A stretch of DNA of 64,000 bases, taken from NCBI GenBank assembly GCA_019787685.1, contig JAHNUO010000025.1, positions 62,001 to 126,000 on the forward strand, written 5' to 3'. Source of the stretch: Chiua virens. Lineage: Eukaryota; Basidiomycota; Agaricomycetes; Boletales; Boletaceae. Below, piece by piece: positions 21,094 to 55,683 of this stretch (its first letter is position 1; each line of letters starts with the position of its first letter). The notes under the pieces are model-generated. The model did no database searches, was not told the origin of the DNA, and saw nothing but the letters and a program-made list of their open reading frames with translations. The translations under genes and the position numbers were made by a program.

Positions 21094-21300
21094 CACCCCT
21101 GGGACAATTGAATAAGTCCTTGTAACATAGGCTGTACATAGCTACAAACATATTCTGCCTAGCTAACTACTAATGTGGTTGAAACATAATTAACAACAAA
21201 CTGACAAAATGTTGCTAGTTTTGCTTGTGGGACTTAGGCTTGGGAAAAGGTAAAATATTATGCCTAAATTTAGGCATAATAAAAACTGGGCCTCTGTTTC
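21094..21300 (+). repeat. Left terminal inverted repeat of the giant element
   Basis: It matches the complement of about 55480-55683 with about a dozen differences, mostly transitions. It contains a perfect 24-bp palindrome at 21257-21280 centred on CCTAAATTTAGG. Looser similarity (GGCCACTC-type motifs) continues to about 21620. Confidence 0.9.
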
Positions 21301-21665
21301 GTGAATTCATTATCACACTTTCTTAGAAAAAGATCATGCATTTGATAATAAAACATTTTTGTGTACAGATTCTCCATATGCAATGGGAACATTGTCGGAG
21401 ACTGAGCCAGAATAAGTATACAATTTGCTATAAGGTCATGTACAAAATAAGTTCATTAGATAAAACAGCATACATATCCAAAAAGAGTCAAGAATCTGTG
21501 AACAGTACATTTGCAAGATCTGATTTTGAATATGATTAGAAAACATATGAGGGGATCACTCAGAGGACCACTCAGAGGCCACCTGGTAGACCACTCGGGG
21601 GCCACTTACTGAGGCCCTGCTCGGCAAGCAGCCAGCTGTCCATAAGGATCCTAACGATTTCTGAG

Positions 21666-22560
21666 TTAGGTGTAGTCACATTGTCCACTGATAATGCCTA
21701 CCAGTTTGGGGAACTCAATGTTGTCTCTGGAGGCGAGGATTGCACAGTATCTGGTACTTAGACCCCTAAACCACTCATTGCTATACCAATTACAGGGAAG
21801 TCCAGGAAGGGGCTTTGCCAGAGTATTCTTCCTGCGGGGTTCGAAATGGTGGGAAAGCGAGGCATTGCCAATATGCAAGCGCATGTTCTCTTCTATGAGG
21901 GAGGGTCCATAGGATTCTACAGCTTGGAATAAGCGTGAAATAACAGGACTTATCCATGGAGTTTTGATATGCCTCAAGACTTTGGGAAACACTCTGGCCC
22001 ACAAGTCTGTTTCATCTCCACTCATCCCCTCCACTCCTAGGCAGTTGAGCATTTGTATGATCACATCCCAGGTGGGGGGATCTTGAGATTGATTTTCGTG
22101 GGCAATTTTGTGGCGCCTGGCAAATGTCTGCAAGTCGATCAGAAGAAGTGTATAGGAGAGACTGAGATATACATATGCCATGTTTCTGGGCAGTCAACCT
22201 GTCATTCTTTCACTGGGCACATTTCTGAGACTGTTGCTGTGCAATAGCATCTACACGAGCTTGCTCATTGTTACTGGAATCTATAACGGCCTGTTGTCGA
22301 TACGCTCAATATGTCCATGACAGCTTCTGCAAGCAAATCTGGCTGAGGGCGTCATAAGTCACACTTGCATGCAAACCCGACTGGATCTCAGATCGAAAGT
22401 CTGCCACCAACAATTGAAGCACTTCTTTATTCCAGGGTGAAGTCTTCAGCAGGCTCTTCCAGTCGATGGCGATATCCTGAATAGTGGGAGGAGAACCTCC
22501 ATCCTGATTGAACGATTGGACTTGACTTGGATCAGGCATGCGTGGATTCCTGACTGTCAA
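21666..22560 (-). pseudogene. Conserved basidiomycete protein of unknown function, possible CACTA accessory protein
   Basis: Three minus-strand blocks fit one protein. 22560-22306 carries LLKTSPWNKEVLQLLVADFR. About 22300-22190 carries a basic stretch that reads AYRQQAVIDSSNNEQARVDA. 22181-21666 carries RRHKIAHENQSQDPPTW, then LNCLGVEGMSGDETD, and ends with PLPGLPCNWYSNEWFRGLS. The GVEGMSxDE and PGLPxNWY signatures recur in large families of unannotated agaricomycete proteins. In-frame stops (after LSWTY, and in the 22200-22260 stretch) suggest decay. Its place beside the left inverted repeat and its co-orientation with the transposase are what a TnpA-like second gene would show; this is inference. 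Confidence 0.55.
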
Positions 22561-22611
22561 GGATCAAGTGTTCATGAGACCTTTCTGTTCCAGGTATCTT
22601 CTGAAAGCTAA

Positions 22612-22918
22612 CTAAAGGTGTATTTGTAATGTGTCAATGTGTGCACGAGGAACAAGGAATACAGAGCTTACATGCAAGTAGTTCATGTGACCATGAGTGC
22701 CAAGTTTTTTCCTGTGGGACAAAACTAATGCGTCCTCATTATCATCTTCATCGTCTCCGTCCCAACCATCCAAGTTCCCAATGTTGCACATTGCAAGGCA
22801 AGCTAGTTTCGTGTTGATAAATTCCTCCAAACAAGGAACACATGTGTCCACTATGCCATGGACTGTAGAGTCAATGAGGTGAGTGGTGGTAGAGTCCAGG
22901 CGTTCTGTAACAACGCGA
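22612..22918 (-). other. Coding remnant cut by a family C LTR
   Basis: The minus frame reads LIDSTVHGIVDTCVPCLEEF and then an acidic run (WDGDDEDDNEDALVL) before HGHMNYLH. It is cut at 22918 by a family C LTR and would have continued at 28057. It may be an upstream exon of the gene at 21666-22560. I do not recognise the domain. Confidence 0.45.
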
Positions 22919-23491
22919 TGAAGGTAATAAATCCCAGCTGTAGTGCAATACTCAGGGGGATTGAAAGAAATAGAAAGAGGGTGAAGGAATGCGATTCCAT
23001 TCAACCCAGGGACAACACTGAGTTGGTGAACGATGAATAATGGTTTTTGAGTAGTCTGAGATGAATCCAGGGTGAATCCAGATTAAAACAGATAGAAAGG
23101 CAGACATGGCAGTCCGATCTGGATCAAGAAAATATGAGGAGAGCGAGAGAAAACGAACATCAACTGAAAACGATGTGAGACAGATGCACACGGGCAAAAG
23201 CTACTGTATTTTGTCAATACAGTGAATTTATAGTCCTCGGGAATACCCTCAGACTTGTCCTAAGTAAGGATAATAATAAAAAGAAGGTTTTCGTACAGTA
23301 TAAAGTTCAAGAGGCACCCGAACGTCCCTGCAAGGGCTGCGTGACATGGTCTAGCCAATGCTAAGTATGAATAAGGAGCATCAAAAATAAAATAAAAGAG
23401 TCCGAGGCAAATCGGGCGCGGATACAGCAATCTGGATGAGTTCGCACAAGCAGACAGATCAGGATCAGGATTGGGTGACGATGGGGTGCGG

Positions 23492-24107
23492 TGTAGGGAA
23501 TAGGTATTCCCTGTGCTTGCATAGCACGTTTCCGCACCCTGTCGTCACCCAATCCTGATCCTGATCTGTCTGCTTGTGTGAACTCATCCGGATTGCTGTA
23601 TCCACACCTGATTTGCCTCGGACTCTTTTATTTTATTTTTGATGCTCCTTATTCATACTTAGCATTGGCTAGACCATGTCACGCAGCCCTTGCAGGGACG
23701 TTCAGGTGCCTCTCAAACTTTATACCATACGAAAACCTTCTTTTTTTATTATTATCCTTACTTAGGACAAGTCTGAGGGTATTCCTGAGGACTATAAATT
23801 CACTGTATTGACAAAATACAGTAGCTTTTTGCCCGTGTGCATCTGTCTCACATCGTTTTCAGTCGATGTTCATTTTCTCTCACTCTCCTCGTATTTTCTT
23901 GATCCGGATTGGACTGCCACGTCCGCTTTTCTATCCGTTTTAATCCGGATTTGCCCCGGATTCATCTCGGACTACTCAAAAACCATTATTCGTCGTTCAC
24001 CAACTCAGTGTTGTCCCTGGGTCGAATGGAATTGCATTCCTTCACCCTCTTTTCTATTCTTTCAATCCCCCTGAGTATTGCACTACAGCCGGGATATATT
24101 ACCTTCA
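23492..24107 (+). repeat. 5' LTR of the family C element
   Basis: TGTAGGGAATAGG...ATTACCTTCA, 616 bp. ACTATAAATTCACTG near 23800 is the likely TATA region; transcription would start shortly after. Confidence 0.9.
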
Positions 24108-24375
24108 ACTGGAGCCCACGGCGAGGGACTTCCAGAAGTTGGTACAGATGACGACAACCCATCCACTCATTATTCACCTCACTCATGACACACCTTCGCT
24201 TCACTCTCAGAAAATTTTCGCCTCGGTTAACACCTCCTTGCATAGCATCATTGCCCCTATCAAACCCTGCACCACTACCCTTACGCCGCTGCAGAACTCT
24301 AAGTGACGTCAGACAAGTCAGACGACACACCTGTCATGGCACACGGTGACCTGTGCCACCATCTGAGTCGTTACT

Positions 24376-25026
24376 ATGCCATCACCCAGATATCTCCTAC
24401 AGCTGCCCTTCCGGACTGCCTCTAGCGCCCCACGTTTCGATGCAACCATTCCATCACAGTTACCTGCCTTTTTGAAATACATCGATCAGTTAGCTACGAG
24501 CATTGGACTCACAGACGCACAGAAGATTAATACAGCCATCTGGTATGCCTACCCAGAAGACGCCGAGCTATGGCGGACATCACAGCAAGTACTCGCAGCA
24601 CAGCCGGATTGGTCAACATTTGTAGCGGATGTCCAGCACTGGTACTCATCATACGACGATGACTACCCACTTTACGTCCCAGAACCATCCATCAACATCA
24701 CCACCGACCCCATCCTTGCCTCAGCATCCACCTCATCGAATCTAGCAGATCACATGCCACAAGGTGATTCCATCCGGGTCTATTCAAGGATAGTAGAATG
24801 CGATCCTGAGCAATCCGGTAATGTCTCAATTGAACCCGTCTATGCTAATCCGCCTCTCACAGCTGTCGAATTTGCAGTACTGCATGCCGAAACACAGGAG
24901 CAAGATGAACCGGATTGCCCCAACACATCTCACCCACTATGCTCACCCTCCTCAGGCACAATCGCTCTGCCACCGGACGTACTCATGCATACATCAATCC
25001 GAACGTTCTCGGATCCATCACCATGA
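24376..25026 (+). CDS. Gag-like protein of the family C retroelement
   Basis: A 216-codon ORF begins at ATG 24376. The first 100 residues look like the N-terminal capsid-type part of basidiomycete LTR-element Gag: PRFDATIPSQLPAFLKYIDQ, GLTDAQKINTAIWYAYPED, then ELWRTSQQ and FVADVQHWYSS with its regularly spaced aromatic residues. The C-terminal half is acidic, Pro/Ser-rich and probably disordered. There is no CCHC zinc knuckle in this frame. It lies 268 nt after the 5' LTR, the usual place for gag. Protein supplied in trans by a complete relative would be needed for movement. Confidence 0.7.
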   Translation: MPSPRYLLQLPFRTASSAPRFDATIPSQLPAFLKYIDQLATSIGLTDAQKINTAIWYAYPEDAELWRTSQQVLAAQPDWSTFVADVQHWYSSYDDDYPLYVPEPSINITTDPILASASTSSNLADHMPQGDSIRVYSRIVECDPEQSGNVSIEPVYANPPLTAVEFAVLHAETQEQDEPDCPNTSHPLCSPSSGTIALPPDVLMHTSIRTFSDPSP

Positions 25027-27396
25027 CCAATCCAACCACCTTCGCCCTCTTCAGATACGTCACAACCCGACTTGTCCACCCCATCGCTCTCACCATCAAC
25101 CACACCAACCTTGCCACCTTTGTCACCTCGGATGACTATGAAGTTGCCACCGATGAACCTCGCACCACCACTTACCCATCCATCACATGGTACTGGATTG
25201 CAGCTCAGCAGATCAACGTTTTCGGCTATGACAAAACGGCCAACTGGGCGCATACTCTCATCCCACTCACTTCCCTCTCACCCACCTGGCTTAGCACGAC
25301 CACCTCACTTGCCTCCAGAGGACACGACTGTGTTATCACCACCGGATCCGCCATCATCGCCATCCGTTCGCAATAGCAGCACACCGGCCACGTCACCAAA
25401 AACATCTATCCGGATAGCTCGGATCATGTCGGATCCATCACCACCTGCATTGCCCAGTCAGTCTCTCATCCCTAAAGCTGTCCCATCACCTATCATGTCC
25501 AAACCGCTGTTGCTGCATTTACAGCCGTATCCGAGGATTTGTAGTACCTTGCCAGTTCAATCGGTTTCTGGCCAGGTATCGAAGCTAAACACACTCTTCT
25601 GCGCAGTTCCTATACCCCATGAAGTGCGCAAATTGCAGCCACTCTCATTGCCCTCGTCCTTCCTCAACAAACCCCCATCTCTGCATTTACGACCGTATCC
25701 GAGGATGAGCACCTCACCAGTTCGATCAGTTTCCGGTCGTGGATTGAAGCTAAACACACTCTTCCGCGCAGTTCCTATGCACCATGAAGTGCATGCATTG
25801 CAGCCACACCCATCACCCTTGTTCTTTTTCAACAAACCACCCTCGCTGCTATCGACCTTGCCCCTCGCTTCTGCAACCATGCCACCACCCATCTCATCCA
25901 AGCCGCCACCTCTACGTTTACAGCCATATCTGAGGACCCATACCTCACCGGTTCAATCGGTTCTGAGCCGGTTATCGAAACTACGCATGCCCTTCACCAC
26001 TCTCCGAGTCCCAATCTGTTTCCCTCTCTCCCAATTTTACACTAATGCATACATCTTTTCGTTTCAGTTTATGCTTCAGCCGTCTCTGCCCACATCGGGT
26101 TTATTTGACGACCCGGCCAACACAGTTCAGTCACATTTTCCCTTCGACCTGGGAATCTGACTGTTTCTTTTTTTTCACTATCATCGAGATGTCCTCACCC
26201 TTTCTCCACAGCATTATCCGGATGACCGGGAGGTCATCAGATATGGCCTACCCAGGGGGGAGGGGTCTACAAGACCACCTCGGTTTCTACACGCAACTTT
26301 TCGCGTTTTCACAATTTCAGTCATTGAAATTATTCTTTTGATATCCGTTTCATCTCTGTTTTGTCCCCAGTATTCGTCCAGCAGATCTCTATCTCACCCC
26401 GGGTTTAGTCCGGTGATTGATCATTACTCATTGAACAAGAAACCATCACAGGAAAGAAAGAATACCATATAGAAAAACCAACACACGATTGTATAGTCCA
26501 TTCATTTCTTCTACCACTCAATTCACTACTTCGTTATTGCAATCATCTAGAGTTCGTGCCCTCATCCGCTACATACCACTTCTGCTCTTCGAACGTGCAT
26601 AGGCACAACGCACTTTATCCAGTCGTATCCGGATCGTTTCCGGACATTTTTAGGTATCACAAAAGGGCATCCGTTGCAGGTATAGACGCGAAAGACGCAC
26701 AACGAAGACAAGCCAAGTCGGACACTTGCCAATTGGTTTTATTTCGTTTTTTCTCTTTCTTATCATTTCTTTCACATTCAACCATACAGTTCTTTTTCTT
26801 TGAATTTGGATCACACAGCGAGCAGCGAGCAGCGGATAGCAAACTCGGCCGACCGGATCACATTGGATCACACCTGACACATGCAGACAAGCAGAATTCA
26901 CACAGGACGATCGACGCATACCAGAGATGCTATCACTGCGATGAACACGAAACCATCACACACACTTCGCATCGCAGATTACGGCCATCCTTCATCCATT
27001 GTGCCTTCATGCGCGAGACTATAGACAACAGACACACAGAAAAGCCACGCATCACACCGTCGCGATCACTATCCGATCCTGTCATTTGTGGATCATTGTC
27101 ACTGTGCCGCTATCACCAGTCGTCATTGTCATTCCTGTCGTTTTCGGGTCATCATCACTGTGCAGCCACCATCACTCTCGTTGTCATCATCATCATCTCT
27201 GTCGTCATCTCTGTCGTCGTCTCTGTCATTACTATCATCACTCTCATCGCTGTCATTGTCTCTGTCGACGTATCCGTCACCCTTGCATATCCAGACCCAT
27301 CCGCTGCCATCTGCAACTGTCACGTTGAACCACCAATCGCATTCCCATACACATCGGGCTGACTGGGGACAGTCAGCATCTAAAGTCCCTGTCGGG
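25027..27396 (+). other. Non-coding or unassigned interior of the family C element
   Basis: Long Pro/Ser-rich frames are open here (25072-26160; 26556-27362) but none carries a retroelement domain. Three imperfect repeats of about 165 bp lie at about 25500-25660, 25665-25830 and 25905-26010. A TCATC/TCGTC-rich low-complexity run covers about 27090-27290. The reading frames probably reflect base composition rather than genes. Confidence 0.5.
25500..26010 (+). repeat. Three ~165-bp tandem repeats in the retroelement interior
   Basis: Units share CATTTACAGCCGTATCCGAG, AAGCTAAACACACTCTTC and CCATGAAGTGC blocks; the third unit is shorter and more diverged. Confidence 0.7.
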
Positions 27397-28012
27397 TGTA
27401 GGGAATAGGTATTCCCTGTGCTTGCATAGCATGTTTCCGCACCCTGTCGTCACCCGATCCCGATCCTGATCTGTCTGCTTGTGCAAACTCATCCGGATTG
27501 CTGTATCCACGCCCGATTTGCCTCGGACTCTTTTATTTTATTTTTGATGCTCCTTATTCGTACTTAGCATTGGCTAGACCATGTCACACAGCCCTTGCAG
27601 GGACGTTCAGGTGCCTCTCAAACTTTATACCGTACGAAAACCTTCTTTTTTTATTATTATCCTTACTTAGGACAAGTCTGAGGGTATTCCCGAGGACTAT
27701 AAATTCACTGTATTGACAAAATACAGTAGCTTTTTGCCCGTGTGCATCTGTCTCACATCGTTTTCGGTCGACGTTCGTTTTCTCTCACTCTCCTCGTATT
27801 TTCTTGATCCGGATTGGACTGCCGCGTCCGCTTTTCTATCCGTTTTAATCCGGATTTGCCCCGGATTCATCTTGGACTACTCAAAAACCATTATTCGTCG
27901 TTCACCAACTCAGTGTTGTCCCTGGGTCGAACGGAATCACATTCCTTCACTCTCTTTTCTATTCTTTCAATCCCCCTGAGTATTGCACTACAGCCAGGAT
28001 ATATTACCTTCA
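27397..28012 (+). repeat. 3' LTR of the family C element
   Basis: 616 bp, same ends as the 5' LTR, directly followed by the GCGG duplication. Confidence 0.9.
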
Positions 28013-28056
28013 GCGGAAACGTGCTATGCAAGCACAGGGAATACCTATTCCCTACA

Positions 28057-29759: not shown

Positions 29760-31532
29760 CTAGGATCTACGCAGACAACTTGAACTCCAGGTACTAGTAG
29801 GTTCATCAACATGAATCACCCTATCCCAGGGCAGCTCCTTTTCTTTCGGGATTTCACCATCAAGGCAACATACTTTGACACGTTGATTCTTGATTGATGA
29901 GGAGATGACCCACAACACTCCCAACTGGTTCACTTTCTGCCCCATCTCCTTCCTTGGTGACCATACAAAGCATATTTTTCTCGCAAGGAGCATGGGGTTC
30001 CAAGTAGTGTTCATGAATATTTTCATGCAGTAAGGCAGCGCCCTTGGAATGAGAAGTGAAATTGACAGCAAGATGCGAGTGAGGGACTGGGTCTCCTGAA
30101 GCTGATTGTAGCGGGTCGGGAATGTCAGTCATGACTCGGTGACCCTCGTAACTACCCTTCCAACCGGTAATCTTGAAGATTGCATGGTAGAACTTGAGGT
30201 TTTCTTTGACGATCGGGTGTAATATAAAATCAAGCTCTGAGAGTCAGTTAGTAAAGGTTAAAAGGGGGCAGAGGGGAGAATGTGCACTCGTTAAGGCAGG
30301 GGCTGCACTGCCAACTACATCGAGAGTGTCTACAACCCAAGGGCTAGAACCTGGTGAGGCCGGAGTGGTTGGAGGTGATGGGGGAGGGGTCTTTGCTCTG
30401 GTTTTTCCTTTCGTGTCCTCTTGCACACCCCACTGGAATGCTCCAAGGACTTCCAGAACTTGAGTGACAGACAACTTTTTACCCCCTAGGGTAGCTGCAG
30501 CACCTCTAGAAATGGTGTAACTCTGAGAATAATCAAAATATCAAGCATAATTTGGTCTTACCTAATGATAACATTGTTTTTTTGGATGACGAAAGGAGGG
30601 GCATTGCCTGGTGCAACCTCACAAGTGTGTTCGGATATGTTTCGGAGCATACCCTGCCAACCCTTATACTTGCCACAGATAATCAAAACTTCCTTTCCCT
30701 GGTGGTGGTGAGCTTGATCGTGATCTGATACCAATCCATCATGACCAACAAACGTGATCAGTATGACAAAACTACCCTGTTCAAAATTAACACCAAGATA
30801 ATGAATGCAGGGCCAACGGCTTACTGAGTTGGCCAGTCCAGCAACCTCTAAAGTTTTCTTCTGAAGGTCGACAGTTTTGACTGTCCCTTTCTTCCCTAAC
30901 AACCTCCCTCTTATAACTTCCACAGCATCTCCTGACCTGATGTTGTAACTGCGGTCAGATGTGAACTTCAGGGCAGCCACTGGAGGTGTAAATGTCACCA
31001 ACATGGCTGGCATGTCAACATGATGACTGTTGTCAATTCGACACAGCCGGACCATCCTCCCATGGATCCCTATCACAACCCCAGCTGTACCATTACAAAC
31101 GCCTGATTCAACAAAGCTGCTGTCACCGATCTGGGGGTAATGAATCTGCCCAGAGCCAATGCTATCCTCGATACATGCATTGTCAGGGTTGGCGAACAGT
31201 TGGTCCGGAACATAGGACTCTAGTAGATAATGCAACCAAGACGTCGACCATTCCAGACCTCTTTTCAAGTGAGAGGATATACGTGAGGTCTCCACAATAC
31301 CACCCGTGCTTAGATATGAGTCCCCATGTGGGAACCTCGGGATACAAGACATCAAAAAGGTCCTCAGGAGATACATACAAGGTCCTTGGCCAGCACAAGA
31401 AGCCAACTTCAGAGACAGCTTGTGTGAGACGGTGGAAGGGCTCGGACGAAGGTTTGCTGATCCAGAGACCAGACATGAATACAACCAGGGAGGGACTGCA
31501 CGACAGAAGCCTTCAGCTGATGCCTGCTCCAA
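29760..31532 (-). pseudogene. KOW-domain (Spt5-like) protein, decayed
   Basis: The minus strand encodes several KOW motifs, the beta-barrel RNA/protein-binding modules of Spt5. One is RSGDAVEVIRGRLLGKKGTV (30940-30870). A second is GKEVLIICGKYKGWQGMLRN (30690-30630). An upstream one, TWGLISKHGWYCGDLTYIL, lies in another frame (about 31320-31250), so a frameshift separates it. Part of the N-terminal region resembles the NGN-adjacent segment (LCWPRTLYVSPEDLFDVLYP). A downstream exon-like block (about 30130-29760) includes VKVCCLDGEIPKEKELPW. Agaricomycetes carry many such Spt5-like genes outside the true SPT5 locus. This copy sits in the giant element and is not intact. Confidence 0.6.
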
Positions 31533-31672
31533 GCCTCTGCAATGTAGTGAGCAGATGAGGCTGTATGACTATGGCTTAGTCCTGAAGTGATGAAGAATGA
31601 ATATACTACTACACACCAGGAATGACTTGAACTGACCATAGTCTCAACTCTGAGACAACCAGCACATGCTCC

Positions 31673-32313
31673 TGTAACAACCTAGAACAAACGTAGACTA
31701 TGAGTTACTTGCGAGTGGTTGTAGTGGTCAGTGTAAGGTTGAATGCAAGTGAGTCTAACGAGTGAGGCGAGAACTACAGAGGAAATCCGTCTATGAGAGA
31801 CAATGGAGGAAAACCAGAGGTGAACTTTGTTAGAGTTCCCTGGTGCTGTATTCAAGTCTTTATATACTAAAAGTACAATCGGAGCTACAATCGGAGTATG
31901 AATATATAGATAAGTATGAGTGTCCTGATTGGTAGATAAGGTGAGATAACATGAGGTATCAGCATGTATGTGAGTCATAGGTAAAGACATGAGGAAACAA
32001 TGCTGTAACAATGCGGTATAAGCATGTTATGAGATAAGCACTGCTTTAATAATAGATATGAGTCATATGGAATCATAGATAAGAGATAACGTGTGAATAC
32101 ACGTGTGTTGTGCATGGGTTATGACATCGTGTGATAACACGTGTCTAATAATGAATCATAGTGAGTCATAAAGGAATGGCCAATAGGATATGATCCTGAG
32201 TATAGCCTTGGCATGAGGCAATATATGCCGTAATAGATATTGTGTATCTTGTATAGTGGATGAGAGCGTTGAGTAGGAAGGCGAAAGAATAATGTGAAAA
32301 CGTGATTGTAACA
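31673..32313 (-). mobile_element. Solo LTR, family B (copy 3)
   Basis: 641 bp, nearly identical to the copies at 6768 and 12849, with perfect GCTCC duplications at 31668-31672 and 32314-32318. It interrupts the 5' part of a minus-strand gene remnant. Confidence 0.95.
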
Positions 32314-32318
32314 GCTCC

Positions 32319-32622
32319 TGCATTGGAGAGGATGGTGGCGATAGTGATGGTGCTGGTGCTGCTGATACATGAGAACGGGAGGGAGGGGAGGAGGGGTCAT
32401 CGGATGCATTGTTTGACCTTCTGCGGTGATGCTCTTCTAGCGAGACAGCGTTGAACATTGCATCTTGTTTATCCAGGTCGCTCTCGAACGCCAGCTGAGA
32501 AACAAAATCTTCCCAATAACTGATACTCCCCAGCTTCCCTTGGTGGAAGTCCATGATCGACGTTAACTTGCTGAAGCACTTGGAGCCGTACAACCAGTTG
32601 TTGATCACACTCCATATACTGC
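32319..32622 (-). other. Minus-strand coding remnant upstream of the KOW gene
   Basis: Reads SVINNWLYGSKCFSKLTSIM, then SYWEDFVSQLAFES and EEHHRRRSNNASDDPSSPPS. It is bounded by a family H LTR on one side and a family B LTR on the other. It may be the 5' end of the KOW-type gene; no domain is recognised. Confidence 0.4.
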
Positions 32623-33508
32623 TGAAGAAATAAAAAATGGGCTGGTGTGACAGGAACAAGGTTAGTAGAACTGTCAGATAGAAAGAAAAGGGATGGGCGC
32701 GAGTATGACTCATCCCAAGGGGTTCTGAGGTTGGAGACGAAGTGTCAAGGCATTGACAGGAGCTTTGAAAGCAATCCGGACGCACTCCCGGGTGAAACCA
32801 TACAAAGGTCGACAAAACCGGCCGAAACGTGGACAGTCGGATAGTTCGGCAACAAGGCAGAGACTCGAGCACAACGGTGATCAAGTACGAGTAAGGTCGG
32901 ATAGAAAATATAGTTAAACGGGTGAGGCGACTTAGAACGTGAGAGGAAAACAGGGATCGAAAAGATAAAATTTTTATTTACGAACACAAATTTTATAGTC
33001 TCAGGTATTCCCCGGGACTTTTACAGCGGATAAAGTATCAAATAAATAAGGGAAGCATACGTATACAGAGCCGACTCTCATGGAGATCGACCCGTGAAAA
33101 GGAAAACAATGTTCTGTCAAGATGGGATAAGGTTTGATCCGTGAATCAATGGACTACCTTTAAAACATCATATGACCCCACTATCTGTTCCTTATAACCA
33201 ATCGGATACGTGTCGATAACACGGAACTGTCTAAAAAAAATCTAAGAAGGTATGAAATAACATAGAAATTGGACAAAAAGAGAGTTGATTAGTGTACGTC
33301 GTGCGATCCCAATTGAGCAACCCGATTCGGTCACCTTGCGCGAAAACATGTAGGAACAAAGAACAAAACATACGAATATGGGTTGGATTCACTTGGATGG
33401 ACATGGGACCATGACGGGCGGGTAGGACAATCGATATGGGCAATCCGGGCATCCTGTAAACAAGCGGGAACACGGTTTTATCACCTCAAGGGGTCATTGA
33501 CTCCTACA
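32623..33508 (-). mobile_element. Probable solo LTR, family H (related to C and G)
   Basis: On the minus strand it starts TGTAGGAGTC and ends ATTTCTTCA, similar to families C and G. A minus-strand TATAAAAT box lies near 32990, about 370 bp before the 3' end. The 4-bp flanks are CTGC (32619-32622) and CCAC (33509-33512); both could derive from CCGC by one CpG transition each, so the duplication is suggestive only. Confidence 0.5.
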
Positions 33509-40779: not shown

Positions 40780-40781
40780 AT

Positions 40782-41027: not shown

Positions 41028-41038
41028 AAAAGGTAATT

Positions 41039-41596: not shown

Positions 41597-41827
41597 TATT
41601 TTTTTGTGGTCTCAGTAAAGAGGACAATGAGCGATGAGTGCGCTATCGACTTCTGTGCTATGTGGACCTTTGGTCTCGAGCGGCTTTTGAAGAGGATAAA
41701 ATCTTCCGTTCAAAGGGTTGCGACTTACTCTGTGCGCTTGTTCCTCTTGTTTAGTGGTAAGACGGCTACGACGAGGTCGAGGGACTTGACAGTAGTATCG
41801 ACAGCGAAGAAAGCAACAAAGTTCTAA

Positions 41828-43139: not shown

Positions 43140-43470
43140 CACCTGCCCTCCGCTTAAGCCCAGAGAAAGCGACATCAGGTGCAGATGGCACTTGGGATGG
43201 GGCAGCAAGGTCGAGTACGGATGGGGCACAAGGGGTAGTGAGGTCGAGTACAGATGGGGCACAAGGAAGGGTAATGAGGGCACAAGGGGGGGTAGTGAGG
43301 TCAAGTGGGGATGGGGTGCGAGGAGGGGTAGTGAGGTCAAGTATGGATGGGGCATGAGGAAGGGTAGTGAAGTCGAGTGCGGATAGGGTGCAAGGGAGGA
43401 TAATGAGGGTGCGAGGAGGGGTAGTGAGGTCAAGTGAAGTTGGGGCACGAGGGGGATTAGTGAAGCGAAG
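43140..43470 (-). repeat. Coding minisatellite in the F-box gene
   Basis: About ten imperfect units of roughly 33 bp encode LDLTTPPRTPS-like repeats (plus-strand unit AGTGAGGTCGAGTACGGATG). Units vary in length by multiples of 3, so the frame is kept. Confidence 0.85.
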
Positions 43471-43689
43471 ATGCTTGGATAGCAGATCTTCTCCATGTTC
43501 GTCATCCCACTTCCACTTAAGCCCAGTCTCATCAGTCCTCTCCCTTTTCTGCGGATTGGGTGTATGTAAATGTAAACTGCCGAGGCGAAGACGTTTGGGT
43601 GGCTGAGGATATTCAGATTCCTCATCCTGCTTGTGCTTGCACTCTGCTTCATCGGCTGCCCCCTTGCTCTCAGACTTGGGGGTGGACAA

Positions 43690-44470
43690 AGTGCCCAGAT
43701 AGGATAGCTACCGAGTGTTTAGTATTTTTTTAATGCTGCAATACAATCAATGGCTTACAGTACTAAGGAAAGATCGAAAGCCCAGCAATCCCAGATAAGT
43801 CAATACCTGTGCAGACACTTCAGTACAGAGTAGTGTACAACCAGAATCACTTACTTCCAGAAGTCTGAGGAGGCAAATGGGTCGACTGACTGAGTTTCCC
43901 ATGATTGAGATAATAATGATAAGACAAGGGTGAGTGATCTTGAATGCCTGTAGAACGGAAATTGTCCTAAGACACAGTGAAGACGCAATGAATAAATATG
44001 CCAACTGAACACAGGGCATATTGAGGACTTACAATAAAGTGGTCAGACCAAGTGCATGCTGAGGGCCCCACACAATAACAATGATTGGTAGCAATCTTTG
44101 GATCGTCGAACCTAAGTGCATCATAGTAATGGAGGGCATGTGACACCCAGGGCTCTGGAGCATCATACTCTGATGCAGAGATCGTTGATTATTGAGCTAA
44201 ATGTATCGTCAGGACTACCTGAAACAATAACAGAGGAGGGACATACAGAGCAGCAGTACTTTGTATCAGCTCATTCTTGTCTCGTCTCATCTCAGGTTTT
44301 TGTTTTTGCTTATGCCCTTGGAGGATCAGAGAGGATCAGAGACCAATGTATTACGTTACATGTGAGGTTAGTACATTACAATCTACTACAACACTTGTGA
44401 CTGTAGTAATGAGTGGTATAGGCGAGTGGTATAGGTGTGGGCAAGAAAGAAAGTCGTACGAAAAAATCCA
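43690..44470. other. Upstream region of the F-box gene, unassigned
   Basis: A minus frame at 44019-43747 and short plus frames at 44116-44480 show no recognised domain. The sequence probably includes the F-box gene promoter. Confidence 0.3.
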
Positions 44471-44472
44471 TC

Positions 44473-46011: not shown

Positions 46012-47485
46012 TCCACCCTGTTCGGGGCATAGAGAGTGGAAAGGGCTGTATGCCAGGAGAATGGAAGGAGGCCAAATGCCAGGAGAATAGAGGGACCTTG
46101 TATAATAGTTGTCGTGTATGATGTATGGTGCGATCATTGTTTGCCTGTCTGTTTGCAACCTGAGCCAAGATAAGTAAGATTGATACAATATATATATATA
46201 TTCCATGTCATACAACGACTCAAGTGGACTATGCTGCTTGCATGGCAGTGTTTTTCAGGAGCAACCTCAGAAAGTCAGACACGACCCAATCACCGTCGTA
46301 GTCATTCAATTGTGGGTACCGTTCCTTTGCCTATCAAGTTATCACTAAGTAACTGATCTTTCTGGGGAGGGTTCGAACCCACTTTAGCAAACACCACCTT
46401 CAGGCCTGCTTGTTTCTGTTTACTCCATGGCTTCGTTATGACAAGGTGATCTTGGGCTAGCTGGATTACAAATGTCTGCAATGATATAGTGAGCAATTGG
46501 CAGGAAGGGAAGCAAGGTGAGTTACACGAATTTCCTCATATTCAGTCACTGGCCATCTTAATTTTTCTTGTAGATTATAGCCACCTTGATTGATTCTAGA
46601 AACCTCTCCCCACAGTTTAAGTATCAGAGTCTTGACCTGTGGGCTAGGATTCCCCACTGGCACCAGTTCATCTTGCTGTGACTCAGCGGCAGGTCAGTTA
46701 CCTGAAATACGAGGAAACATCTTGTGCTGCGTGAGGGGTGGCGGAGTTACCATCCGTTTGGGGGGGAAGATGGACTGGCATATCAGAGGAGAAAAATGAC
46801 AATGATAAGACCAGTGAGATGTCGTTACTTTGGGCATACTGGATTGTTATTGACAACCCCCTTCCTTTGACCTTTTATAAAGATACCTTTATAAAGCAGA
46901 GCAGAGCTGGGTAGTCCCTCAGCATACCTTCACAACTGTCGCGTCCCCACGTAGTCCCAAATCGTCTATTCTTGTTCTAGGCAAACCCTTGTACCCTTGT
47001 ACGTGCATACATTTCTCGTGGCTCATGTACCTAGCTCACACAAACTCTTACCCAGATCACCGGCACCACACAATCTGTTTGTTGCTGGACTCACGTCTTG
47101 GTGCAGTCGCACTCCCAATGGATTAGACAAGGTATGTATATTACAGTGGAGTTTGAAATCAGCCATCACTATTTAGTATGAGCAGAGTATCAGTCCATCG
47201 GTTTCCTTCACTTCCCCATGCTCACCCATTAATACTCATTAGTCGCACTAATAGTTACATACCCTAAGATCACCCCATACCATAGCCACTATACCTTACC
47301 TACATCACATTTAGTTACCCCCAAGAAAACAAAAGTCATGTTTGTTATTTGCGCCCTAAGTTAGTAACCTTATGCCCTTTGATACCCCCATGGAACCACT
47401 ATTGTTTTGCTCCCTTCATTATGTGTACTCGGATATGCTCCTCAGTTACCTCACTAAAGCTCAGTATGGTATTTCCTATTATCGC
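46012..47485. other. Unassigned stretch with a TATA-like region
   Basis: Minus frames at 46663-46302 read WPVTEYEEIRVTHLASLP and further on WSKQKQAGLKVVFAKVG, resembling short basic segments of unannotated basidiomycete proteins. TTATAAAGATACCTTTATAAAG at about 46876 could be a promoter. An inverted copy of the TAGTGACGGCCGATTT motif (TTTGAAATCAGCCATCACTA) lies at about 47152. Confidence 0.3.
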
Positions 47486-48100
47486 TGAAGGTAATATATC
47501 CCGGCTGTAGTGCAATACTCAGGGGGATTGAAAGAAATAGAAAGAGGGTGAAGGAATGCAATTCCATTCGACCCAGGGACAACACTGAGTTGGTGAACAA
47601 CGAATAATGGTTTTTGAGTAGTCCAAGATGAATCTGGGGCAAATCTGGATTAAAACGGATAGAAAGGCGGACATGGCAGTCCGATCCGGATCGAGAAAAT
47701 ACGAGGAGAGTGAGAGAAAGCGAACGTTGACCGAAAATGATGTGAGACAGATGCACACAGGCAAAAAGCTACTGTATTTTTGTCAATACAGTGAATTTAT
47801 AGTCCTCGGGAATACCCTCAGACTCGTCCTAAGTAAGGATAATAATAAAAAGAAGGTTTTCGTACAGTATAAAGTTCAAGAGGCACCCGAACGTCCCTGC
47901 AAGGGCTGCGTGACATGGTCTAGCCAATGCTAAGTATGAATAAGGAGCATCAAAAATAAAATAAAAGAGTCCGAGGCAAAACGGGCGCGGATACAGCAAT
48001 CTGGATGAGTTTGCACATGCAGACAGATCAGGATCGGGATCGGGTGACGACAGGGTGTGGAAACGTGCTATGTGAGCACAGGAAATACCTATTCCCTACA
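47486..48100 (-). mobile_element. Solo LTR, family C (copy 5)
   Basis: 615 bp, minus orientation (TGTAGGGAATAGG at the right end), with flanks TCGC (47482-47485) and TTGC (48101-48104) that differ by one CpG transition. Confidence 0.88.
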
Positions 48101-48182
48101 TTGCTCCTTGGCAACACTCAAGAACAAAAAACAATACTGTACTTATACTGTGAAGAAAATGAACCCGCATTCATCGTACAAC

Positions 48183-49520
48183 ATGGATGCTACTCAGGAT
48201 GTGAGCAGAGCAACGTCTGTGTCCTTTGTCCTTTCTACTAACAGTAACAGTTTTCTCTCAAGTTCACACTTGTGCGGCACACCAAAGCCGTGAATACAAT
48301 TGTTATAAGCCCCTGCGGCTCCATGCTCCTGAGTGGTGGTAAGTTTCGTTCTACTCTTCACAATTCCTCTCTCACTGTCAGACCAGGTAATGATAGTTGT
48401 GTCGTCATTTGGAGTTTATCGTCAGGAGAAATGATTCAGGAAGTTTATATTCCCTCCACTGGATTTATATCTTGTCTCACATGAATCGGACTATCTGACA
48501 AGGAGGATGCATTTGTGTTTGGTGCCTCTGATGGGAATATTCATCTCTACAGTCGACCCAAGGACAACCCCTTGTTTGCATTCACTTCAATCACTCTCGC
48601 CCATGGCAGCGCCATCGAATTTTTCGCATGGGATCCTGTTCAGAGTCATTTGGCAAGTGCAGGCAACAGTGAAGTTAAGTTATGGAAAGGTAGCCCAGAA
48701 GCCAGTATGTTTAATCATTGTCTATCTGAACCATTGTCCTTGTACTGACTTCCTCAGAATCATTCATTTCATTCAGCCCTGATGCCAAAAAGCAGCCCTA
48801 TATTACTCATTCTGTTCATTTCTGCGATGAAGGTTCAAGTCTTCTCATCAGTTACCTTGAAAGTGGCTTTGTGTGTGCCTCATTTTTTTTCCCTTGTATC
48901 CTTTATCGAAGGTGCTTACAGTGCTGGGCTTGCAGTTTCTGTTTCTCTTGTGATCCATGGGATTTCAAGTGGAAAAAGAAAGTCAATGGATGCATGTACG
49001 CGTTTCCTCTTTGTCCTTGTTCTTGGAGTTGATCATCCCTGCAGCAGCAGCACTTGTCTCAATGGCCAACACCTTTTAATCACCAACCTGCATGACAGTA
49101 TCGATCGCTACACCCTGCCTACAATGCATCGCAGTCAGACATATCATCATACGATTCTTGTCAATGTCCCCCTCCAGATTTCAGTTGCATGCGAGCTAGG
49201 ATGGGTGATAGTTGGTGGGAATAATGGTTTCACCAGGGTGTTTGATTATCAAACAGGTACTTTCTGCAGGAAGTTGGACCATGGTAGCTGTATGTGTTTT
49301 TGTAACTTGCTCACGAGTACTCTGACTTCTCAATCTCCAGCTGGAGATCGAATTGTTGCTATCACAGTGAGCTGTCTTTGAGTTATCCCCATGTGGTCTC
49401 TAACTTCAACTTAAATCCTATCAGGCCTTTGAAGGAACAAGCAGTTGTATCATTGCAACTGGGAGTGCGTCAGGGGGTCATAGCAGTGTGAAGGTATGGA
49501 CTCTACAAAAGCAGGTGGGT
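48183..49520 (+). pseudogene. WD40-repeat protein (decayed)
   Basis: Beta-propeller repeats are visible in order: VRHTKAVNTIVISPCGSMLL; after an intron (about 48341-48388) DSCVVIWSLSSGEMI; then DAFVFGASDGNIHLYSRPKD; FFAWDPVQSHLASAGNSEV followed by KLWK. Further on are NVPLQISVACELGWVIVGGN with GFTRVFDYQTG, and finally CIIATGSASGGHSSVKVWTL near 49500. The ATG at 48183 precedes the first repeat but needs an intron or indel to join the frame. A TGA after FISCLT stands where Trp is expected, and the middle (about 48780-49010) is broken. The downstream SPS/PPL-rich tail (49740-49880) may be translated in an intact relative. WD40 proteins are scaffolds; the partner is unknown. Confidence 0.65.
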
Positions 49521-50129
49521 AGTTATTTTTCCCCCTTCATTGCTAATCTGTTGAGCGAACCCAGCGCTCTTTGCAGGGTTCCTCACCCCCTACCACACAA
49601 AATCTTCACCAGCCCTCCTCATCTACTAAGCAGATAGTGATCTTTGGCATCATATATGTCCTCGTGAATATTATTATGCAATACCTTACCCTTTCTACCC
49701 CGTATAACACCTTCATTACGATATGAGACTTAACCATATCTGCAGTCCATTCCAGTGACTCCCTTAGTCCCCCTCTTAGCTCCTCTGTGATCCATCCCAG
49801 CGATTCTCCTCATAGTCTCCCCCTTAGCTCCTGTGCAGTCCATCCCAGCGTCTCCCCCATCAGTTCCCCCTTTAGTATGCCTTAAGCATCCTCCCCATCC
49901 TGGACAACTTATCTACATGTAATGTAAGTACCCCAAAAACTACGCTCTGCTTCTCAAATGGTTAATGGCGAATGAGTAATACACTCCTTCGTGCAATCAT
50001 GTATATGTAGTACACAAATCCACATTGACTAGCTTGTATACTCACTTTACTGCAATAGTCTACCACCGACTACATCATTTTCAATGCTACGCCTCACCCC
50101 ACAGTTCCCCTCACATTGTGCTGGCACCG
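49521..50129. other. Pyrimidine-rich tail between WD40 and transposase genes
   Basis: Two to three imperfect repeats of CCATCCCAGCG...CTCCCCC...TTAGCTCC lie at about 49738-49875. Otherwise nothing is recognised. Confidence 0.35.
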
Positions 50130-53100
50130 TCAAATGCCTTCTAATGTTGTAAGTTCGGTGCCACCCTGTATTTGCATGCAGTCACTCACCCTATTTAATG
50201 CCTTCATTGCCAATATTCCAGTAATCCATGGCATGCTTACTCCATGGCAAACTTTTCCCTGTTTCAAGGGAACAATATCCAGATCAGTTGCATATGTGTC
50301 CCTCCACAGACTGGCTCCAAAATCTCTGTATTCTTGGAAGGGATCCTGCATGGCATTCGAAATTGGTAAGTGTTGGCAAACTGTCAAGAAGTACTCCTTT
50401 CCACCCGCTAACAAGATTCCAAAGATGTGCTCGATTCTCCCTGGGACGGACACTCGTCCATCATTGAAAAAGATGGTACAATCGGTTTTGGATACCTCGT
50501 GTGTGGCATATTGAATACCACATAAATGGTAGCGTTTATACATTTCAATCTTGCTATTCTGAGCATTGATTCCTCTCACATGGAGTGCATTGATGATATA
50601 GTCGGGTATTGGGGTTTCTTCACTAGTGTGTTGATTGTTGTGCATGCTTGGTATGTCACCCACTGTCGATATTCCACACAGAAGACTGAGATCTGCATCG
50701 AATAAAGTCTCTCCTTGTGTCTGTCTGGACACTTGTAGTATGGCACTTGCGTGTTCAATGATACTTGCAGAATCCTTTTCTTGAAGGAGGACTCTTACTT
50801 TCACTCCTGTGCAGAAAGTAAGAAGCATGGTTTTCTCCATTTCACCTTCATTCCTGTGAGTTTTATTGATCTTCCTTCTGGTCATGTTTACCTACCCATT
50901 TTGTAGTTCATGTTGCTCTTCTGCAACGTGCCAATTATCCGTTCAAACAGAAACATCCACCATCCATGCATCGGGCCATACCTTCGCAGAACTTGGCGGT
51001 GAAAACCAATAAATGAATGGACAGTGATCTGTACCTCTCAAAAAATTCATGGATGTGCAACGCCACATGGTGATTAGGCCGCCAAGCTATGTCTGGAAAG
51101 AGGTCTTTGACCAATTGCAAGTAGGCCGTCATATACCCTGCATACTGACGTGTGTGTTCGTCAGACATGACATGAGATGTTCCCCATCTGATTGCCATAG
51201 CCAAGAGCATTGTGCCGTGTGCCAGCTTCTTCCTTCACACACTCTTCTCGTCTCCGGTGCAATCAGTGCCCCACAGTTTGAGGAGTGTGACAGGAAGGTC
51301 AAACTCAATACTCGATCGCCATTGATCTGCTTTCAGTTTTCCATGGTCGGCATTGCCAAGGTCAATAGGGGGTCCCCTGTGCCAGGAAGGTCTTCGTATT
51401 TTCTTTAAACACTCTTGAATCTGATTGACTTCCTCGTTGGTTAGGGGTTTGCAGCTTTGTGGTTTCTTGTCCGCATGCCTTCCATTTCCAATGCTGCATT
51501 CATCCACAAGTTCTTGCCCCATGAAGGAGCCTTCATCCACCTCCATGTGAACGCTTTCCTGAATCGTCCTTGTGAGTACGGCCTTCAAGATCGTCATGTT
51601 AGATACATATTTTGTAAGTGTTTGCTGCTCACCGATAGCAGCACCTGAATTATCTCCTGTTTTTTAGGCACCTTTCGCAATGAGTTCACCAGGTGGTGTA
51701 CATTGCACTCGTCTAGCAGTTTCCGAAGGGTAGGTGCATGCAATTGACCTAGCGCCACTTCAGTCGGATTGGTTTGCAGGATTTCCCTGCCTTTCACCAG
51801 CTCCCGTTTGTCAACCAGTTGATCAGGACCTCCAGAATTGCATAAGTCCTTGTTCACTTGTTTATCAATAACGATAAGGTCTCTGAACTGGAACTGCGTT
51901 AGCTCAAGGAAAAGATTATGCATGCCATCGATAATGAGGAAACGAGTTGGGTCCCAGTACAGCAAGTGAAGTAGTTCAGACCACCGCACACCCGTCTCCT
52001 TGAAAAATTCAGTCCCATTCTTTCTTGGTATCCATGTCTCTCCATTCAATGGCTGCATTGTAGGGAATAGGTATTCCCTGTGCTCGCATAGCACATGTCC
52101 GCACCCTGTTGTCACCCGATCCCGATCCTGATCTGTCTGCATGTGCAAACTCATCCAGATTGCTGTATCCGCGCCCGTTTTGCCTTGGACTCTTTTATTT
52201 TATTTTTGATGCTCCTTATTCATACTTAGTATTGGCTAGACCATGTCATGCAGCCCTTGCAGGGACGTTCGGGTGCCTCTCGAACTTTATACCGTATGAA
52301 AACCTTCTTTTTATTATTATCCTTACTTAGGATGAGTCTGAGGGTATTCCTGAGGACTATAAATTCACTGTATTGACAAAATACAGTAGCTTTTTGCCCG
52401 TGTGCATCTGTCTCACATCGTTTTCGGTCAACGTTCGCTTTCTCTCACTCTCCTCATATTTTCTCGATCCGGATCGGACTGCCGTGTCCGCCTTTCTATC
52501 CGTTTTAATCCGGATTTGCCCCAGATTCATCTCGGACTACTCAAAAACCATTATTCGTCATTCACCAACTCAGTGTTGTCCCTGGGTCAAACGGAATTGC
52601 ATTCCTTCACCCTCTTTCTATTTCTTTCAATCCCCCTGAGTATTGCACTACAGCCAGGATATATTACCTTCAGCATCATAATGGTACTGGTAGGTATGAT
52701 ACCTCCAACTATTGTAGTTGAAGTTCCCCTTCTCTGACTTGTTCAACCAACAGAGATTACACAAATGGCGTGACGTAGGGGCTGCAAAACTGTCAATTTT
52801 TCGAGTGGCTGGCAAATCACTGATAACCAGAGCAATGACCAAGCGTATCAAGCAGCCCATGGAATGGCTCATAGTCCTGGTGAACCACGTCCCAAATTTT
52901 CAGGCAGCAACAAAGGAATCAATGACAGGCCACAAAAAATGATTGACCTGTTCAAGCAAAGGCTCCTTAGGTCCAGGGATGATGCCCGCAAGATAAATGT
53001 TTTCAGGTTTGTAACAAAGACTGGGGAGGAGATTGAGGATAGTCATTGCAACCGAACCAACAGATTTCTTTTTCCTGGCCATCTTGTTTCCTAGAGGGTT

Positions 53101-54321
53101 GAACCAGTCGATACTGAGACTCCAGGCTAAGCGGAGGTCGCTCCTCTTTAAACCGTCTATGAAGGGCTTCTTATCCAGTCCCTGAATCTCAGATATTGCT
53201 GTCCTGTCTTTGATATCCCATAGGTGATATTTGTCATTCAGCAAGGTTCTGCACTCCAAAGCTTCCTCTATCCCAGGATGACTCAATAATTCACCCATGA
53301 AGTCACTGTAATCTTGGACCACGTAAGGCTTTACAGGAACTTTGATCTTCTTGCCACCCTGTTTCACCGTTTTGACTAATAGTTGTCTGCAGGGCTTCCC
53401 ACCTCAGTACTTCGTGAACATACACTGTGTAGGGTAGGTCTGCAAGTCCCCCTTCCTAACCAGCGCATACATGTAGGAGCATTTGGGACACGTGGCATAG
53501 GTGTGGGTTATCAGGTCAAGGTCAAGTTTCTTGTGAACCGTGCGGATGTCTCGGGGAAGATAATCACTGACTCCCTCTCCAGATTGACCAGTTCCCTCTC
53601 TCGTGGTAGGATTGCCAAGGACTGTGGTCAGCAAGAGGTTTAGTAAGCCCAGTAAAGTGTTCGACCAGGGGCGCATGAGATGACCGAAGACATTCAGAAT
53701 GAGAGCTATGAGCATGGGCAAGAAGATAGCTGGATTGGCGTTTCAAAAGCAGTGGTGGAATTTATCTTCTGTAAGTTAGTTTAATGAGTCACTACAAACT
53801 TGGTGCTGAGCTTGCATCATACCTGTGTCCACTACTTCTGCAGCCTGCTCCCTCTGCGGGACGATCTCTGGAGCCTACCCATCCAAGGTTGTCTTGACAG
53901 TGGTCACCGCTGCGAGGACTCGATCCAAAGAATTCTTCAATTCACTGCAAAGTAACTCATTCGTATTGTCTCCTCCAGTGTCCAGGTGTGCGATCCTCTG
54001 CCTATTCTCCTCCAACCAAATCAACTCCTGCTGTAGCGACGCTATTGTGGCTTTCTGTGCCCCTTGTACATTCAAGCCCTTCATCATTGCAGAGATGCTC
54101 CCTGCACGCTCATGCAGCTGGTGGTCTGTGAGTGCAAGGTCTGCAAAAGTGGCATCGACCGGTTTGTGAAAGTACTCAGGCATTGTTGTAATCGGAATAG
54201 TGGTTGGGAATGGAGTGGTATCTGGGGCGACTATTTCCTTTGATGCTGCATGCTCCTCGGTCAATGTTTTTTCTTCCAAGGTCATCTTGAACACACTTCT
54301 TGCAACTTCCTCAATTGCCAC
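50130..54321 (-). pseudogene. Tnp2-type CACTA-like transposase, split by a family C LTR
   Basis: The whole protein can be followed leftwards. There is an N-terminal helical region (54321-53875), then LILNVFGHLMRPWSNTLLGL. A Cys ribbon follows (ATCPKCSYMYAL, TYPTQCMF), and after it the core LRLAWSLSIDWFNPLGNKM, LPSLCYKPENIYLAGIIPGP and KEPLLEQVNHFLWPVID. A Cys motif HLCNLCWLNKS comes next. After the LTR (52059-52672) come TGVRWSELLHLLYWDPTRFL and IDGMHNLF, then RRPSWHRGPPIDLG, KADQWRSSIEFDLPVTLL, RPNHHVALHIHEFF, EGEMEKTMLLTFC and the C-terminal VPGRIEHIFGILLAGGKEYF. Stops include a TGA (expected Arg) after MFTKY and another after KKEWD; an extra T gives a frameshift just after it. This is the only transposase-like gene in the giant element and in this copy it is dead. 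Confidence 0.9.
52059..52672 (+). mobile_element. Solo LTR, family C (copy 6)
   Basis: 614 bp, TGTAGGGAATAGG...ATTACCTTCA, with perfect GCAT duplications (52055-52058 and 52673-52676). Removing the LTR and one GCAT joins the transposase frame as HYDA-AIEWRDMDT. Confidence 0.93.
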
Positions 54322-55215
54322 ATCCTGGTAGCCCTATGAGATCATGTTGTACAACGAATTCAACACTTCACTCACACTTTTATCGTGTAGTGTCATATTG
54401 GAAAGACACTGTGATATGTTCAAGTCATCATTCTATTGAGTAGTTGTTACACCTCTGACATAACAAATGAAATTTTAAATACCCCGGTATGCAAGGCAAG
54501 TTGGACATGATCATTGCAATCATGCCTTCACTTTACATCTTTGTGGACTTCCTTTCCCCCACAGTTGGTGCAATAGCACAGGACCATGGCAAGTTCATTC
54601 CTATCTCACTATTCTGGCTGCTCTATATGCTCTTGCTGAACAACGCACGCCTCCTAAGGAATTACTCTACTTTGACCACACGTAATGGTAACCAGTAATA
54701 AGCAAGGCCCTCCATAACTGGCAAACAAGGCACTTAGCCTTAGCTCAGTAAGCGACAACAAAATGGAACAATTCATTATACTGACTTGACTACCGTTCCT
54801 GACTTTCCATATTCAATTGCTAATTGTTAACTTCAACAATAGATTCATGACTCTTATATCCCTCTCAATGCATTGCAGTCTGCCCCTCTTCCACTTTCTC
54901 CTCAGCATGGTTGTACGTCCCGCCATTCAAGTTCCATAGTCTGTCTCATGTTAACATTTGTGGTCAGTGCTGCATACATGCTAAACGACGAGCACTGAAA
55001 GCCTCGGCCAACAAATGCAGTTCAGTCTCGGTGAGTTCCTCTTGCTTTAATAGTCCCATTACTGACTGATCCTGCAGACCCACCATTTTTTGCGAGAGAT
55101 CAAAGGAGTTACCATTTGGCTTTTTGCTATCTTCCTACTTGGATTGGCTTCTGTCCTGGCAGACTGGGGGTTACAGCAGATCAACTTTGCTTTCCTTCAC
55201 CTGGTCAACCTTAGT
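54322..55215. other. 5' region of the transposase gene
   Basis: No further conserved exon was identified. A 69-codon plus frame (54489-54698) has no recognised domain. The promoter of the transposase and subterminal transposon sequence probably lie here. Confidence 0.35.
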
Positions 55216-55479
55216 GAGGCCCCCTGTGTGGTTGTGAGTGGCCCCCTCAGACATATCTGACATCATATTTAGAATCTGTAGCAAAATAAGTAATCAAAAC
55301 CGAGTTTTCATAAATATTTATAATAAGTTTCTTGTTTCTTGACAAACTTTGCGCGTAAACCTGAGTTTAGATCTGGCATCAAAAATGATGACTTGACATA
55401 TTCAGTAAATTATTGTGCATTTGTAAGCAGCACAGATAAACTATCTTTTTCAGAAACATTTGACAAATTAGCTCACGAA

Positions 55480-55683
55480 ACAAAGGCTTCACTCTTATTT
55501 TGTCTAAATTTAGACATAATATTTTACATTTTCCCAAGCCTAAGTCCCGCAGGCAAAACTAGCAACATTTTGTCAGTTTGTTGTTAATTATGTTTCAACC
55601 ACATTAGTAGTTAGCTAGGCGGAATATGTTTGTAGCTATGTATAGCCTATGTTACAAGGATTTATTCAATCGTCCTAGGGGTG
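55480..55683 (-). repeat. Right terminal inverted repeat of the giant element
   Basis: Complement of the left repeat; the element ends CTAGGGGTG before TCA (55684-55686). A 16-bp palindrome TGTCTAAATTTAGACA lies at 55501-55516, at the place of the left-end palindrome. Weaker similarity continues inwards to about 55215. Confidence 0.9.

Follow-up and report, generated by a model that had tools for sequence, protein, structure and literature searches.

A candidate clade of ~20-kb CACTA-type transposons with a recurring set of six genes in Chiua virens

Organization of the element in the window

We analyzed a 64-kb stretch of the genome of the basidiomycete Chiua virens (contig JAHNUO010000025.1, positions 62,001–126,000; hereafter the window, with features numbered from its first letter), in which an element of 34,590 bp occupies positions 21094–55683. 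The evidence laid out below makes it highly probable that the window holds a decayed member of a clade of ~20-kb CACTA-type (Tnp2) transposons built around the same six genes, which we designate T (Tnp2 transposase), W (WD40), X (orfX), F (F-box), K (multi-KOW) and E (terminal). Names such as C2, C22 and C62 denote contigs of the same genome (48.3 Mb, 136 contigs), with C25 being the contig of the window.

The termini of the element read CACCCC...GGGGTG, with the trinucleotide TCA immediately outside each of them (21091–21093 and 55684–55686); both could be read directly and are as given in a preliminary description made from the window sequence. The left terminal inverted repeat (21094–21334, forward strand, CACCCCTGGGAC...) and its right counterpart (55443–55683, reverse strand) are 88% identical over 243–247 columns in a blastn alignment; in an ungapped comparison the identity is 95% over the first 100–150 bp and 91% over 200–207 bp, with only weak similarity past ~240 bp. 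Thus, the repeats of the preliminary description are real, but its figure of 94% over ~200 bp was slightly too generous. As the first 207 bp of the repeat have 45 matches in the genome, including the repeat itself and five 26-base palindromic pieces, the repeat lies beyond chance similarity.

Six genes were delineated between these ends, using Pfam profiles and tblastn. At the left, gene E (21699–22608, reverse strand) codes for a terminal protein without a Pfam name and reads outward to the left end; it was traced by tblastn with two open reading frames (ORFs) from C62 (75634–76104 and 76115–76615, 37–44% identity). It is followed by gene K (29911–32623, reverse strand; PF00467 and tblastn), for a multi-KOW, putatively Spt5-like protein, which retains an open stretch of 336 amino acids at 30558–31568, and gene F (34797–43707, reverse strand), for an F-box protein (PF12937/PF00646 in the C2 copy; tblastn), which is split by a retroelement and includes the ORF at 42676–43707. 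Gene X (46232–46837, reverse strand) codes for a small protein with no Pfam name, detected by tblastn at 44% identity to the C62 orfX and carrying several stops, while gene W (48248–49538, forward strand) codes for a WD40 protein (PF00400 in the C2 copy; tblastn) with one stop in its first stretch. Finally, gene T (50187–54150, reverse strand) lies within the right end and reads inward, and its match to PF02992 (with tblastn support) bears out the Tnp2-type transposase proposed in the preliminary description. It is broken by an insertion and by stops.

The element has been inflated by insertions. Nested repeats of the long terminal repeat (LTR) type, so assigned by reading the repeat pattern, make up ~5.1 kb at 22916–28015; they are not in the C2 copy, and ~0.6 kb of them is in the C22 copy. 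Gene K is interrupted at 31673–32314 by a ~640-bp LTR-like repeat, recognized by repeat comparison and tblastn, which recurs in the window at 6768–7408 and 12849–13491. An 889-bp insertion of unassigned type (32620–33508) is absent from C2 and C22; a 93% match to it lies inside the C20 copy at 403357–404243. The retroelement in gene F (35387–42259, reverse strand) is probably of the gypsy type, as read from its ORFs. Its LTRs (35387–35818 and 41828–42259) show one difference in 430 positions, and it is absent from both C22 and C2; hence it appears to be a young insertion. Two solo-LTR-like insertions, at 47483–48104 and, within the transposase gene, at 52055–52674, emerged from the comparison of copies and are common to the window and C22. 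Because window insertions of 4,525, 646, 890 and 6,878 bp are absent from C22, these four are probably later additions, as the preliminary description had supposed of the retroelements. Subtracting the 14,794 bp that are extra relative to C2 leaves a core of 19,796 bp, in agreement with the ~19.8 kb estimated earlier.

Copies of family A and their short derivatives

A second copy of the same family (family A) occupies C2:1466841–1487486. It is 20,646 bp long, colinear with the window unit at ~95% identity and flanked by TTA on both sides, with surroundings unrelated to those of the window. It has none of the window's later insertions and features one 676-bp stretch that is missing from the window unit. 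Homology between the two copies breaks off no more than one base from the repeats. A search of the genome for an unoccupied counterpart of the C2 site found none. On C22 the same insertion is found in the same place in inverted orientation, with surroundings colinear with those of the window for ~45 kb at 97–99% identity; C22 is thus probably the other haplotype of the region. Partial copies are present on C20, C29 and C53, and matches to F or W on C45 and C47 may be further remains of the element.

Short elements of ~550–620 bp with family A ends were found on C17, C16, C7, C3, C10, C36, C2 and C11 (L029–L039), and they appear to be non-autonomous derivatives resembling miniature inverted-repeat transposable elements. 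Identical 3-bp duplications flank seven of the 11 two-ended short copies. Together with the C2 copy, these are the paired ends with matching flanks that the preliminary description had suggested searching for with the start of the repeat. Over the elements of this family and of family B (below), 13 of the 15 duplications that match have the form TNA.

A six-gene set recurring across the genome

A genome search with the six proteins yielded 33 matches for K, 43 for T, 27 for F, 25 for W, 44 for X and 28 for E. Neighboring gene pieces were merged by hand into places before counting, with 42 of the 200 matches dropped as second pieces, leaving 31 places for T, 30 for X, 27 for K, 24 for E, and 23 each for W and F. 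With a linking distance of 20 kb, all six kinds co-occur in 16 of 54 clusters, and four or more kinds in 19, whereas in 1000 uniform random placements clusters with at least four kinds averaged 0.009 and never exceeded one. Some of the 16 six-gene loci are probably allelic pairs and, therefore, not all are independent. Gene by gene, the places clustered with another kind number 26/30 for X, 22/27 for K, 21/31 for T, 21/23 for both W and F, and 21/24 for E; when places were instead counted within 30 kb of T, 19/27 places of K, 19/23 of F and 17/23 of W were captured. Elsewhere in the genome W, F, K and the genes without a Pfam name have few matches at E ≤ 0.001. PF02992 itself has 47 matches (41 over the cut-off), of which 16 fall within six-gene clusters.

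The loci fall into four gene orders. Written from T, these are T>W<X>F>K>E> (order A: the window, C22 and C2), T>F<W>K>X<E> (order B: seven loci), T>F<X<W>K>E> (order B': C18) and T>K<W<X>F<E> (order C: five loci). In all 16 of the loci T is outermost and reads inward, while E is outermost at the opposite end and reads outward. The element ends were read for families A and B and, among the other orders, for the right end of C18. Identities to the family A queries, for T, K and W respectively, are 76, 48 and 81% for C18; 69, 45 and 72% for C30; 61–66, 35–37 and 63–67% for family B; and 60–67 (one further piece 55), 32–33 and 63–64% for family C. This roughly parallel ranking fits a joint descent of the three proteins, with the proviso that neither T nor W tells B and C apart. 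Two type C blocks (C4:88871–107898 and C4:137012–156040) stand in inverted orientation ~29 kb apart with their E ends facing.

Family B and a site without the element

The prototype of family B, C62:57292–77178, spans 19,887 bp and is flanked on either side by TAA. The best 20-bp match (16/20) initially served to pick its ends, a score reached in 23 of 300 shuffles, and in one of 300 with equal flanking triplets required as well. A genome search with these ends then confirmed them by recovering seven large two-ended copies, whose 220-bp ends are 98–100% identical and whose termini read CACCCG/CACCTG. Their lengths are 19,887 bp (three copies), 19,871, 19,955, 26,824 and 33,339 bp. The flanking triplets match in five of the seven (C62, C13, C3, C25 and C2). 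Single family B ends were seen on C28, C39 and C6, and a short 882-bp relative on C29 is flanked by TCA on both sides. The C62 copy keeps 760 codons of T open, and a likely intron of 46 bases containing a CTAAC motif, chosen from four candidates, would connect this frame to the next.

When joined, the flanks of the C62 copy match C56 across the junction with 97% identity over all 700 bp, the element being absent there. The C56 junction reads TTCTATTCCCTTATTGTAAGGAG, against TTCTATTCCCTTAAGGAG as predicted from the C62 flanks; the five extra bases in C56 would fit an excision footprint made of the duplicated target and the terminal TG of the element. Alternatively, C56 could be a site that was never filled, with an unrelated indel. 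Judging by its almost identical ends, family B has probably been mobile in the recent past.

Selection and decay

Between families A and B the proportion of differing synonymous sites (pS) is 0.74–0.84 across all six genes, which is saturated, and that of non-synonymous sites (pN) is 0.27–0.50; the codons came from tblastn-aligned stretches, which favors the better conserved parts, and stops were dropped. Since the proteins still align while the synonymous sites are saturated, all six genes have probably been under purifying selection for long.

Within family A a different signal prevails. Across the 19,766 positions at which the window and C2 copies align, 894 differences are transitions and 23 are transversions. 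Of these transitions, 633 correspond to a CpG kept in C2 and lost in the window and 60 to the reverse. Gene-wise pN/pS within the family is, therefore, uninformative. Relative to C22, the element has 499 differences in 21,570 positions, the right flank 12 in 4,991 and the left flank 83 in 5,485; its excess is clear against the right flank and modest against the left. The pattern suggests that methylated CpG sites mutated or that a process like repeat-induced point mutation acted. The window copy is dead: it is CpG-decayed, with T, F and K interrupted.

Predicted proteins of the six-gene set

The Pfam scan covered 40 chosen ORFs, most of which had no family, with the caveat that short exons may be missed. 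A PDB sequence search with T gave no match at E ≤ 1. The fold of T was modeled on a relative (P0001), which aligns to 92% of the C2 protein at 71% identity, using 29 further homologs chosen from 120 listed (mean predicted local distance difference test score, pLDDT, 81). All 42 PDB fold matches of this model at E ≤ 0.001 come from RAG1/2 complexes, each being a chain the size of RAG1. The model thus supports T as a CACTA-type transposase with a RAG1-like predicted fold.

Sequence searches of the PDB with the KOW part of K returned weak matches, the best to an SPT5 chain (E = 0.0046), along with several L24 proteins. The sole database relative of K comes from Boletus reticuloceps. For X, 12 of the 18 database matches carry names, namely Melanogaster, Paxillus, Boletus and Suillus, all of which belong to Boletales; the predicted fold of orfX (mean pLDDT 70) has none of its 41 PDB matches at E ≤ 0.001. 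The first part of gene E (L056:634–1104) has a weak, below-cut-off match to the NUP210 Ig-like domain (PF22969, E = 4.6e-5).

Origin and possible role of the six-gene set

Several observations weigh against a transposon clade of this kind. First, the RAG1 matches of the modeled transposase are partial, with template modeling scores of 0.30–0.39. Second, the ends read CACCC and lack the strict CACTA letters, and subterminal short repeats, a feature of CACTA/EnSpm elements, exceed the shuffled maximum at only one of four ends and weakly so (seven near-copies of TATGTACAT at the left end of family B against a maximum of six in 20 shuffles). Third, the duplication fails in four of the 11 short relatives (two by one base, two without an intact end), and two of the seven family B copies have unlike triplets (C4, TTA/TCA; C9, TCT/TAA). 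Each of the latter (C4:2007266–2027152 and C9:46431–66385) has one flank in common with another family B copy and a differing other flank, making it likely that the 20-kb copies recombined ectopically or that the assembly switched between them. Fourth, each of the three family A copies that were compared has several in-frame stops in gene X, and thus no intact family A copy was seen. Fifth, some places are solitary: 10/31 for T, 5/27 for K, and 2/23 each for W and F.

The strongest competitor is an ordinary Tnp2 transposon that recently captured host genes as cargo with no role; the preliminary description, too, had taken the unknown genes and those for F-box, WD40 and KOW-type proteins for cargo. 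These three domain types are indeed common in host proteins, and reading frames taken from C2 are broken by stops and indels when followed in the window and in C22. Against this, one and the same set recurs in 16 loci of four orders, W, F and K mostly lie with another gene of the set, and the proteins are conserved between families with saturated synonymous sites. These facts, with the scarcity of matches elsewhere, suggest that E, K, X, W and F are constitutive genes of the element rather than passengers; we accordingly consider recent capture improbable.

Even less probable is that a host gene cluster was copied by segmental duplication to give the repeated six-gene blocks, in which Tnp2 and the inverted repeats would be chance neighbors. 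In its favor, ~45 kb of C25 and C22 are colinear and some loci are probably allelic; however, the C2 homology stops at the repeats, several sites have 3-bp duplications and C56 has a site without the element. There is next to no likelihood that the two ends stem from two smaller elements with host sequence between them. Short elements with the same ends do exist, as do single ends on C53, C29 and C20, but the C2 copy is colinear over 20.6 kb between unrelated flanks with TTA/TTA, and the family B units are of almost fixed length. The C2 copy, preserved end to end in unlike flanks, led us to reject both the host-cluster and the two-element readings; it also bears out the single CACTA/Tnp2-type element with a 3-bp duplication of the preliminary description, which had named two separate elements as the outcome that would count against it. 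A virus-like or other non-transposon element, for example an integrated virus or a linear plasmid whose integrase would be Tnp2, might account for the unusual gene number and size and the conserved non-transposase genes, but is equally remote, there being no polymerase or capsid family in the scanned ORFs, most of which lack any family.

For the transposon clade, we envisage that T would recognize the CACC...GGTG ends, excise the whole unit and join it to a new site, with the chemistry taken from its family; joining would create the 3-bp duplication, mostly TNA, whereas the ends, duplications and copies themselves are observed. Cut and paste with a 3-bp duplication is proposed because of the transposase family, and it fits the duplications and the C56 site. 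With low confidence, we suggest that E, K, X, W and F would help to keep the element functional despite methylation and mutation by its host. The F-box and WD40 proteins might act as adaptors of a ubiquitin ligase (Skp1–cullin–F-box, SCF) or of chromatin, the KOW protein might be an Spt5-like transcription elongation factor for silenced templates, and X or E might be an end-binding partner. An anti-silencing role of the accessory genes is, however, a tentative proposal. So too is the fuller picture, for which the odds are against us, of an undescribed, recently active ~20-kb CACTA-type clade of Boletales or their kin, whose conserved six-gene machine includes a ubiquitin and transcription module countering methylation-based silencing.

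Multi-gene DNA transposons this large are rarely reported, and their extra genes are often taken for captured passengers. Here, one transposase lineage keeps the same five accessory genes in its company across families with saturated synonymous sites, the order of the genes being shuffled by inversion. Since this linkage, near-identical family B ends, an element-free site and a CpG-mutated family come together in one genome, whether a transposon maintains standing genes to overcome host silencing becomes directly testable.

Comparison with known systems

The elements resemble CACTA/EnSpm (CMC) transposons in their PF02992 transposase with its RAG1-like predicted fold, CAC...GTG ends and 3-bp duplications, and differ from them in five further conserved genes, a size of ~20 kb and no clear subterminal repeats. 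The captain of a Starship is a tyrosine recombinase (DUF3435) at one end; that family had no match in the 40 chosen ORFs, and here a Tnp2 gene sits at the element end. Starships of Pezizomycotina, as described in the excerpt of PMC12134995, are likewise large multi-gene mobile elements of fungi, with accessory cargo, whereas ours have inverted repeats and a Tnp2 transposase, along with genes of a fixed set. A limited search of open-licence literature found neither a conserved set of F-box, WD40, KOW, X and E genes nor a transposon with tnp2 and KOW.

A RAG1-like fold is expected for the CACTA-related transposase group according to the consulted part of PMC12730594. The same text gives TGT..ACA or CATCA..TGATG ends for Plavaka; we rejected Plavaka since our ends differ and the scanned T ORFs have no PF18759 match at E ≤ 0.05. 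PF18759 has at least 161 matches in this genome against 47 for PF02992, and Plavaka seems to be the commoner CACTA-like group in it.

The size is unusual for a Tnp2 element, as the preliminary description held; yet, it is not new in itself, since En/Spm families of 16–20 kb with 4–5 ORFs are reported from the red alga Chondrus crispus (Kojima 2013, cited in PMC6431247). These are alike in size and multi-ORF make-up and differ in belonging to another host lineage; the passage in PMC6431247 does not name F-box, WD40 or KOW genes.

A functional parallel is offered by fungal EnSpm and Plavaka transposons that carry a TET/JBP gene proposed to counter silencing, the EnSpm members among them having CAC..GTG ends and 3-bp duplications (PMC12730594, in the part consulted). 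They are alike in having an accessory gene, in ends and in duplications, and differ by the TET/JBP enzyme, a family for which the 40 chosen ORFs had no match in Pfam, where short exons may be missed. Given that precedent, as far as that part of the source describes it, accessory genes that counter silencing are plausible in the present elements as well.

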